Source: Cryobacterium cryoconiti (GTDB lineage Bacteria > Actinomycetota > Actinomycetes > Actinomycetales > Microbacteriaceae). From it: DNA of 64,000 bases. The position numbers and the translations under genes are program-made. Below the pieces are notes generated by a model. The model worked only from the letters and a program-made list of their open reading frames with translations, did not search any database and had not been told where the DNA came from. The stretch spans positions 1 through 64,000 of the forward strand of contig NZ_SOHA01000010.1 of the NCBI RefSeq assembly GCF_004403065.1, in the 5' to 3' direction. Shown piece by piece: positions 25,076-59,314 of the stretch. The first letter of the stretch is position 1. The number at the start of each line of letters is the position of its first letter.

Positions 25076-25133
25076 GTGGCCGTTCCGGTCGAGAGTGACC
25101 GCTGCAGCGGTCACTCTCGACCGGAACGGCCAC
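25076..25133. repeat. 58-bp perfect palindrome downstream of purA
   Basis: Positions 25076-25104 are the exact reverse complement of 25105-25133, with no loop and centre CTGCAG. The stretch cgttccggtcgagagtgacc (25081-25100) recurs exactly at 54236-54255. As RNA it would form a 29-bp stem on either strand (less a minimal loop). A terminator for purA is possible, but no T-tract follows. It is the cleanest member of the intergenic inverted-repeat set in this window. Confidence 0.9.
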
Positions 25134-27521: not shown

Positions 27522-28471
27522 CCGCCCAGACCTCCGTCCTTCCCGGGGCGGCGCGGCCCCTCCCGGCCCAGTTCGGCAGGACCTTCGTCGTCACCGGCGC
27601 CAACGCGGGCCTCGGATATTTCACCGCCGAGCAGCTCGCCGCGGCGGGCGCCCACGTCGTGCTGGCCTGCCGCAATCCGGCCAAAACGGAGGCCGCGCTG
27701 GCGGCCATCCGCGGCCGGGTGCCCGGGGCATCCGTGTCGTCGGTGCCCCTGGACCTGGCCGACCTCGGCGAGGTGCACCGCGCCGCGGACTCGCTGTTGG
27801 AGTTGCCGCGGATCGACGGGCTGATCCTGAACGCGGGCATCGTGCACCCGCCACGCACGCGCGACACGAGCCCCGACGGGCACGAACTCGTCTTCGCGAC
27901 CAACTACCTCGGCCACTTCGCGCTCACCGCGCGGGTTCTGCCGGCCCTGCGGCGCACGCCGGGCAGCCGGGTCGTGGCGCTCGGATCGATGATTTCGCGG
28001 CTGCTGGATTCCCCTCTGCTCGACCTGCAGCTGGAGTCCGGCTACAACCGGTGGAAGGCCTACGCGCAGTCGAAGATCGCCATGCAGGTGTTCGGCTTCG
28101 AGCTCGATCGACGGCTGCGGGCGGCCGGAGCCGGCGGCACTGACGGGGTGCAAAGCCTCGTTGCACACCCCGGCTACTCGATTTCGGGGCTGACGCCGGG
28201 CATCCGCGGTGTCAATGCGCCGTCGCGGGCCAAGCGGTTCTCCGACAACCTGATGTCGTTCGGCGCGCAGGGCAAGGACGTCGGCGCCTGGGCCATCGTG
28301 AGCGCGGCCGTCGACCCGGATGCCCGTGGCGGCGATTTCTACGGCCCGCGCCACCTCACGCGCGGCCTTCCGACGCTGCAGGAGCCCACCCGCACCTCGC
28401 TCGACCCCGCGGTCGCGGAATCGCTGTGGAGCCGCTCCGAGCTGCTCCTCGGCGCCCCCTTCCCCGTCTAG
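27518..28471 (+). CDS. Short-chain dehydrogenase/reductase
   Basis: 317 residues. The nucleotide site is TGANAGLGYFTAEQL, followed by LDLADLGEV, LILNAGIV and an active site with a serine in GSMIS and YNRWKAYAQSKIAMQ (Tyr and Lys). Extended SDRs of this type, related to retinol dehydrogenase and protochlorophyllide reductase proteins, use NADP; the substrate is unknown. It is coupled to chorismate mutase by an ATGA overlap. The last 19 bases, including the stop codon, are tandemly repeated downstream. Confidence 0.85.
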   Translation: MTAQTSVLPGAARPLPAQFGRTFVVTGANAGLGYFTAEQLAAAGAHVVLACRNPAKTEAALAAIRGRVPGASVSSVPLDLADLGEVHRAADSLLELPRIDGLILNAGIVHPPRTRDTSPDGHELVFATNYLGHFALTARVLPALRRTPGSRVVALGSMISRLLDSPLLDLQLESGYNRWKAYAQSKIAMQVFGFELDRRLRAAGAGGTDGVQSLVAHPGYSISGLTPGIRGVNAPSRAKRFSDNLMSFGAQGKDVGAWAIVSAAVDPDARGGDFYGPRHLTRGLPTLQEPTRTSLDPAVAESLWSRSELLLGAPFPV

Positions 28472-28509
28472 CGCTCCCTTCCCCGTCTAGCGCTCCCTTC
28501 CCCGTGTAG
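28453..28509. repeat. 19-bp tandem repeat made of the SDR 3' end with its stop codon
   Basis: Three 19-base units lie head to tail: 28453-28471 (the end of the SDR gene with TAG), 28472-28490 (cgctcccttccccgtctag) and 28491-28509 (one more change). A decayed fourth follows. Every unit ends in TAG. Replication slippage at the gene end is the simplest origin; a reserve of stop codons or spacing of the downstream hairpin are alternatives. Confidence 0.8.
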
Positions 28510-28565
28510 CTCTCCCGTCGCCGCGCGCGCCGCGCGCTCTCCCGTCGCCCTCGTCACCTCACGCT

Positions 28566-28618
28566 AGAGCGCAAAATATGCCCCTTCGTTCGCGGTTTAA
28601 GGGCAGATTCTGCGCTCT
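28566..28618. repeat. Inverted repeat, AGAGCGCA class, downstream flank of the DUF559 gene
   Basis: Arms 28566-28586 and 28599-28618 start agagcgca and end in a gcccctt/aagggc core; they pair over about 20 positions with two mismatches and one bulge. The element at 29628 on the other side of the same gene has clearly related arms. It lies in a convergent gap between the SDR and DUF559 genes. A short direct repeat (ttcgcggtt at 28589 and again at 28629) joins it to the 3' end of the DUF559 gene. Confidence 0.75.
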
Positions 28619-28636
28619 CGCGGGCCAGTTCGCGGT

Positions 28637-29551
28637 TCAGGGGCGCCAGCCGGCGGCACGCAGCGCCGTCTCGACCTTGCGGAGCACGGAGGCCGGCTTG
28701 CTCCGCAGATGGGATTTGTTGATGCGGATGACGCGCCATCCCTCCTCCATGATCCGGTCGAGACGGTCGACGTCCCAGTGGTACTGCTCCTCGTCGGTGC
28801 GGTGCTGCTCGCCGTCGTATTCGACCAGCACCCGGTAGCGGCGGTAGACCAGATCCCCGGTGGCGATCTTCACCCCGAGACGGTCGGTGACGGCGCAGTT
28901 CACCTCCGGCTCGGGCAGCCCGGCCCGTACCAGTAGCAGCCGCAACTCGGTCTCTTTCGGGGAGTCGACACCGGGCCGCACCCACTCGAAGGCCTCGCGA
29001 AGCTTTCTCGCACCCCGATGCCCCGCATAGCGCAGCACCCCGGTGCGCAGCTCGTTCATCGTCGCCACCGGGTTCTTGCGGCGAACCAGCGCATCGCCGA
29101 CCTTGATCAGGTCGTCCAGGCGGAGCACGGATGCGAGCTGGCACCAGGTGTCGACCGGGGAGGTCACGCGCAGCCCCCGTACGTCCACGATTCGAACGGT
29201 GCCCGGCTCGACATGGTGTCCGACGATGCCGCGCACCCGGTGCCGGGTCGCCGGGTGCTCCGTGCACACGTGCAGGGTGCAGTCACGCTCCAGGATCAGG
29301 GGCAGCGGAAGGCCGTGGATGATCGCGGCGGTGACCTGACTGAAGAACTGGTCCGGCGGCATCCGTCGGCTGTACGTCTCGATGCGTGTGCGGGGGGAGT
29401 CATTGCCGCCCCGCGGGGAACGGATGCCGGAGAAAGGCTGAACGAGATCGGTGCCCCGCATCCGTTTGAGTGAGACGCCCGAGGCGGAGCCTTCAGCGGT
29501 CGTGAATGCCCGCCCGGACAGCGACGGCGGCAGTTTCTCAGCCCGTTTCAT
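28637..29551 (-). CDS. DUF559-type protein with vsr-like nuclease fold domain
   Basis: 304 residues from ATG 29551; a GTG at 29566 is also possible. The C-terminal part (about 210-300) has the DUF559/Vsr-like nuclease core: ETELRLLLVRAGLPEPEVN, YRVLVEYDGEQHRTDEEQYHWD and GWRVIRINKSHL, with the expected Glu, Asp-Gly-Glu and Gln-His residues. The N-terminal about 200 residues lack a clear match but contain short basic helices, as in related actinobacterial proteins that begin with a regulator-like domain. Function unknown. It is flanked on both sides by related inverted repeats, suggesting it moved or was acquired as a unit. Confidence 0.75.
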   Translation of the reverse strand: MKRAEKLPPSLSGRAFTTAEGSASGVSLKRMRGTDLVQPFSGIRSPRGGNDSPRTRIETYSRRMPPDQFFSQVTAAIIHGLPLPLILERDCTLHVCTEHPATRHRVRGIVGHHVEPGTVRIVDVRGLRVTSPVDTWCQLASVLRLDDLIKVGDALVRRKNPVATMNELRTGVLRYAGHRGARKLREAFEWVRPGVDSPKETELRLLLVRAGLPEPEVNCAVTDRLGVKIATGDLVYRRYRVLVEYDGEQHRTDEEQYHWDVDRLDRIMEEGWRVIRINKSHLRSKPASVLRKVETALRAAGWRP

Positions 29552-29627
29552 CCCCAGATGATGCACGACTCACTCGCCGAGCCGCAGAATCCATCCACAC
29601 CCTCGCGTTCCCCTCCCGCCCTGAACC

Positions 29628-29688
29628 CGCGAGAGCGCATTATCTGCCCTCTCAATTGCGCTGAAAGGGCAGATAGTGCGCTCTCGCG
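29628..29688. repeat. Inverted repeat, AGAGCGCA class, between DUF559 and purL
   Basis: Arms 29628-29654 and 29662-29688 pair over 27 bases with only two changes, both compatible with G-U pairs, around a 7-base loop. Farther out, tcccgccct (29614-29622) also pairs with 29706-29714. It lies downstream of purL and upstream of the DUF559 gene. The arm core agagcgcattatctgccct is related to the element at 28566. Confidence 0.85.
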
Positions 29689-29719
29689 ACCGTTTGGGGT
29701 CGAGGAGGGCGGGAAACCG

Positions 29720-32029
29720 CTACTGCGCGAAGCGGGACGGGAGGGTGCTGCGGTGGCGCGACTGCAGGTCGGCGAGCGACACCGTGAAGTAGTCCTGGAT
29801 CTCCAGGGTCGCCGAGGTCGAGTCCGTCACTCCGATGCGCAGCACCGGGTAGCCCCGCCCCTCGCACAGGCCGAGGAACTTCACGTCGTCTTCGCGGGGA
29901 ACCGACACGATCACGCGGCCGGCCGACTCCGAGAACAGGGCGACGGATGCGTCGATCCCGTCGCGCTCGCAGATGTCGCCGAGCCACACGCGTGCTCCGA
30001 CCCCGAACCGGAGCACAGCTTCGGCGAGGGTCTGGGCGAGCCCGCCCGAGCTGAGGTCGTGCGCGCTGTCGACGAGCGCCTCGATCGACGCCGCGTGCAG
30101 CAGCCCGGCGAGGGCCGCCTCGCCGGCGAGGTCGACGACGGGCGGCATTCCGCCGAGGTGGTCGTGGATGACGCCGGCCCAGGCCGAGCCGTCCAGCTCC
30201 TCGCGGGTGACGCCGAGCAGGTAGATGTTGTGTCCGTCGTCCTGCCAGCCGCTGGGCACGCGGCGGGCGACGTCGTCGATCACGCCGAGCACGGCGACCA
30301 CGGGGGTCGGGAAGATCGGCTGGTCGCCGGTCTGGTTGTAGAACGACACGTTGCCGCCGGTGACGGGGATCTCGAGCGCCAGGCATCCGTCGGCCAGACC
30401 GTCGACGGTCTTCGAGAACTGCCACATGACCTCGGGGTTCTCCGGCGAACCGAAGTTGAGGCAGTCGCTGATGCCGACCGGCACCGCGCCGGTGACGGCC
30501 ACGTTGCGGTAGGCCTCGGCGAGGGCGAGCTGCGCGCCGCGGTAGGGGTCGAGCTGGCAGTAGCGGCCGTTCGCGTCGGTGGCGATCACGAAGCCGAGGC
30601 CGGACTCCTCGTCGATGCGGATCATGCCCGCGTCGTCGGGGAAGGAGAGGGCCGTGTTGCCCATCACGTAGCGGTCGTACTGGTCGGTGATCCAGCTCGG
30701 GTCGGCCAGGTTCGGCGAGCCGAGCAGGGCCAGGAACTGCTCGCGCAGCACCTCCGGCGAGACCGGGCGCGGCAGCGCGGAGGCGGTGTCGGCCTGCAGC
30801 GCGTCGAGCCAGGTGGGGTAGGCGACCGGGCGGTCGTAGACCGGGCCGTCGACGGCGACGGTGCGCGGGTCGACGTTGACGATCTCCTCACCGTGCCAGT
30901 CGATGATCAGGCGGCCGGAGTCGGTGACCTCGCCCAGCACACTGGTCTCGACATCCCACTTGGCGGTCACCGCGAGGAAGCCGGCGAGCTTCTCGGGGGT
31001 GACGACGGCCATCATGCGCTCCTGGCTCTCGCTCATCAGGATCTCTTCGGCCGTCAGGGTGGGGTCGCGCAGCAGCACCTTGTCGAGCTCGATGAACATG
31101 CCGCCGTCGCCGTTGGAGGCGAGCTCGCTGGTGGCGCAGGAGATGCCCGCGGCGCCCAGGTCCTGGATGCCCTCGACCAGCTTCTCGCGGTACAGCTCGA
31201 GGCAGCACTCGATCAGCACCTTCTCGGCGAACGGGTCGCCGACCTGCACGGCGGGGCGCTTGGTGGGGCCGCCTTCGGAGAAGGTGTCCGACGCGAGAAT
31301 GGATGCTCCGCCGATGCCGTCGCCGCCGGTGCGGGCTCCGAAGAGCACGACCTGGTTGCCGGCGCCGGTGGCGTTGGCGAGGTGCAGGTCCTCGTGGCGC
31401 AGCACTCCCACGGAGAGCGCGTTGACGAGCGGGTTGCCCTGGTAGACCTTGTCGAACCAGGTTTCGCCGCCGATGTTGGGCAGGCCGAGGCAGTTGCCGT
31501 AGAAGGAGATGCCGGACACGACGCCGTGCACGACGCGGGCGGTGTCGGGGTCGTCGATGTCGCCGAAGCGGAGGGCGTCCATCACGGCGACCGGGCGCGC
31601 GCCCATCGAGATGATGTCGCGCACGATGCCGCCGACGCCGGTCGCGGCACCCTGGAACGGCTCGATGTAGGAGGGGTGGTTGTGCGACTCGATCTTGAAC
31701 GTGACCGCCCAGCCCTCGCCGACATCCAGCACGCCGGCGTTCTCGCCCATGCCGACCATGAGGTTCTTCTTCATGGCGGGGGAGACCTTCTCGCCGAACG
31801 AGCGCAGGTATTTCTTCGAGCTCTTGTAGGAGCAGTGCTCGCTCCACATCACCGAATACATGGCGAGCTCGCCGCTCGTGGGGCGGCGGCCGAGGATCTG
31901 GCGGATCTCCGCGTACTCGCCCGGGGTCAGCCCCAGCGCGTCGAACGGCTGCTCTTTCTCAGGCGTCGCAATCGCGTTCGCAACGGTGTCGGCGATGCCG
32001 CGGGAGGGTGTGGTGGTAACAGCGGTCAC
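29720..32029 (-). CDS. purL: Phosphoribosylformylglycinamidine synthase, large subunit (PurL)
   Basis: 769 residues, the small-PurL length that needs PurS and PurQ. It makes FGAM from FGAR using ATP and ammonia delivered by PurQ. Conserved segments: [13 protein letters not shown] with the catalytic His, GIGENAG-like [28 protein letters not shown]-like [14 protein letters not shown] and [16 protein letters not shown] 32029 overlaps the stop codon of the HupE-like gene by four bases (GTGA), so translation is coupled to it, an unusual partner for a purine gene. Confidence 0.96.
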
Positions 32030-36529: not shown

Positions 36530-36597
36530 CGAGAGTCGCCGTTTGCACCGAGAATCGCCGCCGGATCGGCGACACTCGGCGCAAACAGCGACTCTCG
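36530..36597. repeat. Composite inverted repeat, CGAGAGTCGCCG class
   Basis: Arms 36530-36560 and 36567-36597 match at 27 of 31 positions around a 6-base loop. Each arm holds two sub-repeats (cgagagtcgccg and cgagaatcgccg on the left). It fills the convergent gap between the aldo/keto reductase and purQ genes. The elements at 49997 and 59243 share this core. Confidence 0.85.
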
Positions 36598-49996: not shown

Positions 49997-50068
49997 GCCG
50001 AGTGTCGCCGTTTCTGCCGAGAGTCGCCGTCCTGGCGGGTCACCTCGGCACAAGCGGCGACACTCGGC
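49997..50068. repeat. Composite inverted repeat, CGAGAGTCGCCG class
   Basis: Arms 49997-50021 and 50044-50068 agree at 23 of 25 positions; a second sub-repeat gagagtcgccg (50020-50030) lies within the loop. It lies in the convergent gap between the GH1 gene and a VOC gene, starting 13 bases past the stop codon. Related to the elements at 36530 and 59243. Confidence 0.85.
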
Positions 50069-54164: not shown

Positions 54165-54235
54165 CCCGTCAGGTTAGCGGATGCCGCCCCGACCCGCGCG
54201 GGCCAGCGCTGAGGCGGCAACGGTGTGAGAGAGCC

Positions 54236-54308
54236 CGTTCCGGTCGAGAGTGACCCGCGCAATGGGCACTCTCGACCGCAATGGGCACTCTCGACTGCAA
54301 CGGGCACT
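54236..54308. repeat. Inverted and tandem repeat in the purD divergent gap
   Basis: cgttccggtcgagagtgacc (54236-54255) is identical to half of the palindrome after purA. Its core ggtcgagagtg is met downstream by inverted copies in a 19-base tandem array: gcaatgggcactctcgacc at 54259-54277, 54278-54296 and a partial one to 54308. It lies between the divergent starts of purD and the sterol-carrier gene, the only member not downstream of a gene end. Confidence 0.8.
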
Positions 54309-59242: not shown

Positions 59243-59314
59243 GTCGAGCGTCGCCGTTCGTGCCGAGAGTCGCCGTCGGTGCGGCGACTCTCGGCACAAT
59301 CGGCGACTCTCAGC
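59243..59314. repeat. Composite inverted repeat, CGAGAGTCGCCG class
   Basis: Arms 59243-59275 and 59282-59314 match at 28 of 33 positions around a 6-base loop. Each arm has two direct sub-repeats (gtcgagcgtcgccgt then gccgagagtcgccgt). It fills the convergent gap between purM and the DUF3073 gene, and is the clearest copy of this class. Confidence 0.85.

Follow-up and report, generated by a model that had tools for sequence, protein, structure and literature searches.

The window analyzed here, a 64,000-nucleotide stretch of a Cryobacterium cryoconiti contig, contains a nuclease gene (28637-29566, minus strand) flanked on both sides by related palindromes. The gene encodes a protein of 309 aa that joins an AbiEi-antitoxin-like N-terminal part to a Vsr/EDxHD-like domain. 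The 3' palindrome (28562..28622, 61 nt, no strand assigned) follows the nuclease stop codon at a distance of 14 nt and that of a convergent short-chain dehydrogenase (SDR) gene at 90 nt. The 5' palindrome (29628..29688, likewise 61 nt and strandless) lies 31 nt past the stop codon of a purL-type gene (29720-32029) with AIRS and FGAR-AT linker domains, and is separated from the nuclease start codon by a spacer of 61 nt (29567..29627, minus strand). The neighbors in the window also include a gene for chorismate mutase; an adjacent AbiEii nucleotidyltransferase toxin was not found among them. A preliminary description of this DNA had placed the second palindrome exactly but the first at 28566-28618, which omits 4 nt on either side. 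A tandem repeat (28452-28523) of about three GCGCTCCCTTCCCCGTCTA-like units with a 19-nt period also covers the end of the SDR gene and the bases just past its stop codon.

The two palindromes are 77% identical to each other. The arms of the 5' copy form a 27-nt pair that is 93% complementary, and those of the 3' copy a 22-nt pair that is 86% complementary. When folded as DNA, they reach -28.5 kcal/mol (z -8.9) and -18.0 kcal/mol (z -3.6) respectively, with none of 200 shuffles folding as well. The exact half-site AGAGCGCANNNTNTGCCC occurs four times in the window, always within the two brackets. When up to three mismatches are allowed, 11 matches are found in the window against 8.7 expected, and these looser matches are therefore without meaning. 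The window contains 12 hairpins of at least 20 pairs, compared with 0-1 in each of six dinucleotide shuffles. The initial claim that no other gene in the window is bracketed by one class thus holds for this bracket class, which has only two copies here, but other hairpin families are present as well. Rfam gave no matches at gathering score within the window and the window has no tRNA. No intrinsic terminator with a T-run was called at 28400-29800, and no T-run follows either bracket.

The protein has the DUF559, Vsr-like nuclease fold that had been proposed for it. Its Pfam DUF559 match exceeds the cut-off (27.4 vs 20.6 bits), whereas that to MTES_1575 falls below it (29.5 vs 38.2). The AlphaFold model of the protein has a mean pLDDT of 92.5 and a pTM of 0.88. 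Foldseek alone returned nothing at E <= 0.001, with mitoribosome proteins and I-Bth0305I as its top rows, and the fold assignment was clarified afterwards by VIA-align. In this structure comparison, residues 202-307 match the catalytic domain of I-Bth0305I (Z 13.0, 96 residues, 2.5 A) and about the same stretch matches Vsr (1cw0, Z 10.7), while residues 8-197 match AbiEi (6y8q, Z 11.6, rmsd 6.0). The domain limits of approximately 8-197 for the AbiEi-antitoxin-like part and 200-307 for the Vsr/EDxHD-like part are correspondingly approximate. Among the fold matches there are also FASTKD4 and mitoribosome rows (Z 8-10), which represent the Vsr-like RAP domains of mitochondrial RNA proteins. Six residues are invariant across 36 homologues (E205, D238, E249, D251, H255, D265), in keeping with a working nuclease. 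Of these, E205, D238, H255, and D265 may correspond to the E-D-H-D catalytic set of the EDxHD family. NCBIfam provided no useful name for the protein, PHROGs gave weak matches only, and PADLOC gave no match for the window protein; one PADLOC AbiEi model matches 12 of the 36 family members, the window protein not being one of them.

To follow the bracket through the family, hairpins were detected blindly within 350 nt of each homologous gene in 81 loci, comprising the window and the best 80 of 256 loci from named genomes. A 5' hairpin was found in 50 loci, a 3' hairpin in 46, and both in 31, which leaves 50 of the 81 loci without a detected pair. In 29 of the 31 two-sided loci, no other locus matches either side better than the opposite side does, the exceptions being L103 and L124. 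The median own-pair score is 36 compared with 8.5 between loci, a value reached by none of 2000 permutations, although permutation counts are not strict probabilities given that close species are not independent. The palindromes have a median length of 61 bp. Bracketed relatives are spread across the Actinobacteria, and their bracket sequences vary by species: GAGAGCGGGTGAATCGTCGG in L062 and L063, GAGAGTGCACTTTTCGCCCC in L065 and L066, GAGTGAGCAATAAATGCACTTCCCG in L073, and CCCAACTGGATCGCAGTTAATGTCC in the Arthrobacter locus L120. The gene at the SDR site of G014 lacks any bracket. Of a further 29 homologue loci taken from 48 match rows, 27 were assessed for brackets; L330 and L317 were dropped with no tblastn hit. 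One of the homologues, in L316 (G012), has three hairpins upstream and two downstream, all five nearly identical.

Three comparisons show how closely the palindromes keep to this gene. Across 80 loci, hairpins of at least 22 pairs number 62 in the 55,011 nt within 350 nt of the gene and 23 in the 834,279 nt elsewhere, a 41-fold higher density near the gene. In a test that does not depend on hairpins, 52 of 82 loci have 5' and 3' flanks whose similarity exceeds that of 99% of cross-locus pairs, a score reached by 10 of 345 control genes from the same loci. Finally, the tested loci include seven homologues from a plasmid collection that played no part in forming the idea, of which three have matched hairpin pairs (L295, L297, L299) and five pass the flank test. 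Bracketing by palindromes does recur around other genes of this nuclease family, as it had been suggested to check, and the results support the palindrome-gene-palindrome arrangement as a genuine recurring unit with a strong association between palindromes and nuclease gene. The window brackets are only 77% alike, which is the one point in favor of chance or an artefact of GC-rich sequence. We give that explanation next to no credence, since it is contradicted by the shuffles, by the permutations across loci, by the control genes, and by the loci from the plasmid collection.

The palindrome class of the window has about 15 copies in this genome, one of them degenerate. The outer part CGCGAGAGCGCA and a GCCC block are nearly fixed among the copies and the bases between them vary, mostly with a matching change on the opposite arm. 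Such compensatory changes affect 10 pairs and 26 cells, as opposed to 9.5 after shuffling and 3-6 for slid controls. By eye, the copies end in CGCGAGAG. Paralogues of the nuclease in the same genome have brackets of other types: the C21 type is present on both sides of its gene, and the C40 and C25 types on the 3' side only. Four of the five multi-copy hairpin families in the own-genome stretches examined match a nuclease-gene bracket, in counts that include the brackets and over-represent the window type, since the loci were chosen around window-type copies. No bracketed gene was found in these stretches for the fifth family. Solo copies number four for the C21 type, two for the C25 type, and two for the C40 type. 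Hence each gene with a visible bracket is associated with a single palindrome type. The C21 homologue (L061 3020-3601; C21:21519-22100) is an open stretch with an in-frame TGA and may be a gene in decay that has kept its brackets.

The location of the copies was established for 35 palindromes in four genomes (15 here, 6 in G015, 6 in G018, 8 in G022), including the degenerate L057; gene calls came from a simple codon-usage finder rather than a standard annotator. Nineteen copies are convergent, 13 tandem, and two inside ORFs, with L057 as the sole divergent copy. Ordinary gaps of at least 30 nt are by comparison convergent in 16 cases, tandem in 44, and divergent in 23. A stop codon lies within 22 nt in 25 of the 32 copies where one faces the palindrome, and the median distance between a palindrome and its closest stop codon is about 13 nt. 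In G015, a hairpin is present in 6-7 of 10 loci, according to two counts. Target-site duplications were not in evidence: repeats of at least 3 nt flank 2 of 32 copies against a shuffled mean of 0.96, in a set that includes the unrelated L206 hairpin and excludes the degenerate L057 and the two brackets.

Two alternative explanations bear on these locations. The first is that the palindromes are bidirectional terminators or 3'-end hairpins of mRNA that spread by ordinary recombination, the nuclease being an RNA-acting, RAP/Vsr-like factor for 3'-end processing. The short distance to the nearest stop codon, the 19 convergent copies, and the mitochondrial RAP domains among the fold matches agree with such a role. 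We nevertheless consider it quite unlikely, as no T-run follows the window hairpins, no terminator-like site was called, and both the matched brackets around one gene family and the copies in coding linkers described below are left unexplained. The second is a regulon, in which the protein would be a palindrome-binding, AbiEi-like regulator that also has a nuclease domain. The brackets would then serve as operator and terminator of its own gene, and the dispersed palindromes would be regulated sites that co-evolve with its specificity without transposition. The AbiEi fold of residues 8-197 is suggestive here, as is the upstream bracket often lying about 60 nt before the gene (median 68 nt, quartiles 56-106 in relatives; 61 nt in the window). 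Site type and bracket also change together in part. The sites, however, are past stop codons, and a single one of the 35, itself degenerate, is in a divergent promoter gap. In addition, the two copies in coding linkers and the exchange of families at one site require insertion, and this explanation is accordingly unlikely.

The clearest case of insertion is a copy in L047 (2948-3008) that interrupts an Ada/AlkA-like gene in the linker joining its HTH and AlkA_N domains. The loci of ten relatives were fetched for this linker, of which the tenth (G010) held no match. The hairpin is absent from all nine orthologues found, and linker length is variable among them. Given that the linker is interrupted here and palindrome-free in 9 of 9 orthologues, the palindromes insert. 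The L047 palindrome is open in two of the three forward frames. A second copy, in L046 (2969-3029), likewise lies in a coding linker, between lipoyl and E3-binding domains of an acyltransferase.

Gains, losses, and swaps of palindromes are also seen at three unlinked gene ends compared at orthologous positions: C44, C29:170 kb, and C46. An unlinked site at C46:29.1 kb was too diverged in the relatives for comparison. At C44, the palindromes of this genome, G001, G009, G011, G010, and G012 differ in spelling, with those of G010 and G012 being of their own bracket type. G013 and G014 have another family at this position, G015 and G024 a plain GC hairpin, and G002, G018, and G022 no palindrome. 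At C29:170 kb, the hairpins of G002, G011, and G015 resemble their own brackets, the type in G010 and G012 differs from their own bracket, and G022 has its orphan type (see below). G001, G013, and apparently G014 have the family that brackets the C25 paralogue of this genome, and the own-type copy in G018 is decayed, the hairpins of G001 and G018 having been read by eye rather than called by the detector. None is present in G009 or G024. At C46, resemblance to the own bracket is seen in G002, G010, and G018 but not in G001 or G022; the hairpin of G014 is short, and this gene end is bare in G009, G011, G021, and G023. On the basis of the insertion and these comparisons, the mobility of the palindromes is well supported. 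Roles in regulation or RNA 3'-end formation fit poorly with the coding-region copies and family swaps, and either may be a secondary role.

The type of palindrome found at these sites partly follows the bracket of the genome. Over 21 usable rows, the resemblance of site hairpins to the bracket of their own genome was 575 compared with 414 +/- 49, a value reached in 6 of 5000 permutations. This test used the 10 genomes in which the SDR-site gene has a detected bracket and omitted G013 and G014 (bracket not usable), G024 (gene at another place), and sites with plain terminators or no hairpin. The tracking is imperfect: the own bracket is the best match for 7 of the 21 site hairpins, and at one site it comes at or close to the bottom of the ranking for G010 and G012.

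The specificity of the types was followed by pattern searches across genomes. Matches to GAGCGCANNNNNTGCCC number 26 in this genome (G000), 15 in G018, which is the L100 genome with the same bracket type, and 12 in G022 (Cryobacterium sp. Y11), compared with 0-5 in each of the 16 other Cryobacterium genomes (19 in total). The L062 type has six half-sites in its own genome (G001), corresponding to the two brackets and one solo palindrome, with none here and 0-2, allowing mismatches, in seven others. Likewise, the L120 type is confined to its own genome (G007) among nine, where it comprises the two brackets and one half-site. Dispersal can thus be slight, as in G001 and G007 under the strict pattern. 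The palindrome type is GAGAGTACG in G010 and GAGAGCGGG in G001. Y11, G010/G012, and G015 each have a dispersed type without a matching bracketed gene among the homologues examined; for each of these orphan types, the matching bracket is present on the gene of a sister species. We read the orphans as older populations left after the resident gene changed type.

The nuclease gene itself behaves differently from its palindromes. All 14 homologues with at least 62% identity come from named Cryobacterium genomes; purL is directly upstream in nine of them and the SDR neighbor is kept in 13. Because this SDR-side position is shared by 13 of 14, the window gene is vertically inherited, with no recent insertion history. 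The preliminary description had seen at this locus the layout expected of a small mobile or domesticated unit, and one of the two outcomes it named as refuting this was a constant gene position without insertion history. That one of the two was found, in those 13 of 14 homologues, and the proposal is not supported for the window copy. More broadly, it survives in that the unit recurs and palindromes insert elsewhere, although the window gene has not recently moved. What moves readily is the palindrome, not the gene of the window.

Syntenic loci lacking the gene, a comparison also put forward in the preliminary description, are available for L073, where a homologue and its palindromes occupy a gene junction. 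Gene and palindrome are both absent in all 10 relatives compared. The neighboring genes at this junction are not the same in every species, and another hairpin occupies that gene end in G015 and G013, so it was rejected as a clean empty site. The absence of this gene and both of its palindromes, situated between two gene ends, would be expected if the palindromes were the ends of an autonomous transposon-like element and the solo palindromes its MITE-like leftovers, as would matched ends in general. Such an element is very unlikely overall. It is difficult to reconcile with a window gene vertically kept in one place, with the lack of target duplications, and with own-genome paralogues that have distinct palindrome types rather than copies of one unit.

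The explanation we favor, with a probability of about 0.6, is a partnership like that of REPIN-RAYT systems, in which the palindromes are a genome-specific mobile family of about 60 bp and the bracketed gene encodes their partner nuclease. Judging from fold and symmetry, the AbiEi-like half would bind the palindrome as a dimer and thereby provide sequence specificity. The EDxHD/Vsr-like half would then cut at or beside the palindrome, or else at a target site, for example a hairpin already present at a gene end. Repair or copying would place the palindrome at new sites, preferably just past stop codons; the location of copies past stop codons and the gain and loss of palindromes are the observed side of this step, while mobilization by the nuclease is what we infer. 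At a gene end, the inserted palindrome would replace, or become, a terminator-like hairpin. Should the preference of the nuclease shift, both brackets and then the dispersed copies would change in step, and old palindrome families would linger for a time as orphans, a pattern partly seen in the genomes above. A wider form of this proposal is that of a separate class of intragenomic mobile element, in which palindromes colonize and overwrite gene-end hairpins across the Actinobacteria, each family is driven by its own bracketed AbiEi-EDxHD nuclease, and a change of specificity rewrites palindromes genome-wide. This would make it an analogue of REPIN-RAYT that evolved independently from a homing-endonuclease fold, and we regard it as an even bet.

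Several known systems share features with this one. Rickettsia palindromic elements are short palindromes, some of them within coding regions. We know of no partner nuclease for them, and they differ from the present case in that here the palindrome type goes with the resident gene. REPIN-RAYT systems consist of dispersed extragenic palindromes and a resident gene that has palindromes of its own class on its flanks; a genome can contain several such classes, each next to a separate gene (PMC3116915). The present system is similar in that genes are flanked by their own palindromes, with a distinct class for each gene (although the pair went undetected in 50 of 81 loci), and in having dispersed extragenic copies in the same genome (slight in G001 and G007). 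It differs in its enzyme, which combines an AbiEi fold with a Vsr/EDxHD fold rather than being a Y1 (HUH) tyrosine transposase. In addition, its copies are single 60-bp palindromes of low copy number, whereas a REPIN is a pair of REPs with GTAG/CGTC tags, which are absent from the own-genome copies. MITEs are set apart by target-site duplications, which were not in evidence here (2 of 32 against 0.96).

The enzyme also has partial counterparts. I-Bth0305I, an EDxHD homing endonuclease, shares the nuclease domain fold (Z 13.0) and, according to a review, dimerizes on a target of nearly 60 bp (PMC3943268), compared with a median of 61 bp for the palindromes. The present gene, by contrast, is a free-standing bacterial gene with an AbiEi-like N-terminal part and palindromes on both sides. 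AbiE type IV toxin-antitoxin systems share the AbiEi antitoxin fold (6y8q, Z 11.6); the window gene instead has a fused nuclease domain and is located beside purL-type, SDR, and chorismate mutase genes, not an AbiEii toxin. The nuclease fold is shared with the Vsr mismatch repair endonuclease (1cw0, Z 10.7). Caulobacter VsrA has a DUF559 / PD-(D/E)XK nuclease domain, but is linked to cytosine methylation, and palindromes go unmentioned in the portion of that paper considered here (PMC12907096). Among the open-licence PMC papers listed, as judged by titles and the starts of abstracts, none ties palindromes to DUF559, Vsr, or AbiEi genes. Because the enzyme lacks the defining transposase of REPIN-RAYT and this open literature is negative, the findings suggest a previously unrecognized class of very small mobile DNA that relies on an enzyme of its own.

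If this is true, at least two unrelated superfamilies of bacterial enzymes run populations of tiny palindromes. DUF559 proteins, which are common "unknowns" in actinobacterial annotation, would gain a function. The hairpins at many actinobacterial gene ends could then be mobile DNA that switches type with a single gene, providing a directly testable case of a protein binding preference rewriting its sites genome-wide.

Three further large hairpins of the window (36530-36597, 49997-50068, 59246-59311), all between convergent genes by the gene calls used here, form one GAGAGTCGCCGTTTGTGCCGAGA-like family for which a bracketed gene was not found. Dispersed hairpins at 25076-25133, 54227-54292, and 831-894 belong to the bracket types of the C21 (L061) and C25 (L060) paralogues. 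The two highest flank scores among the control genes belong to an ORF by the chorismate mutase gene (L062 8535-9539, L063 8537-9556), the positional counterpart of the EamA transporter gene of the window. In L063, this ORF has C21-type-like hairpins on both flanks.
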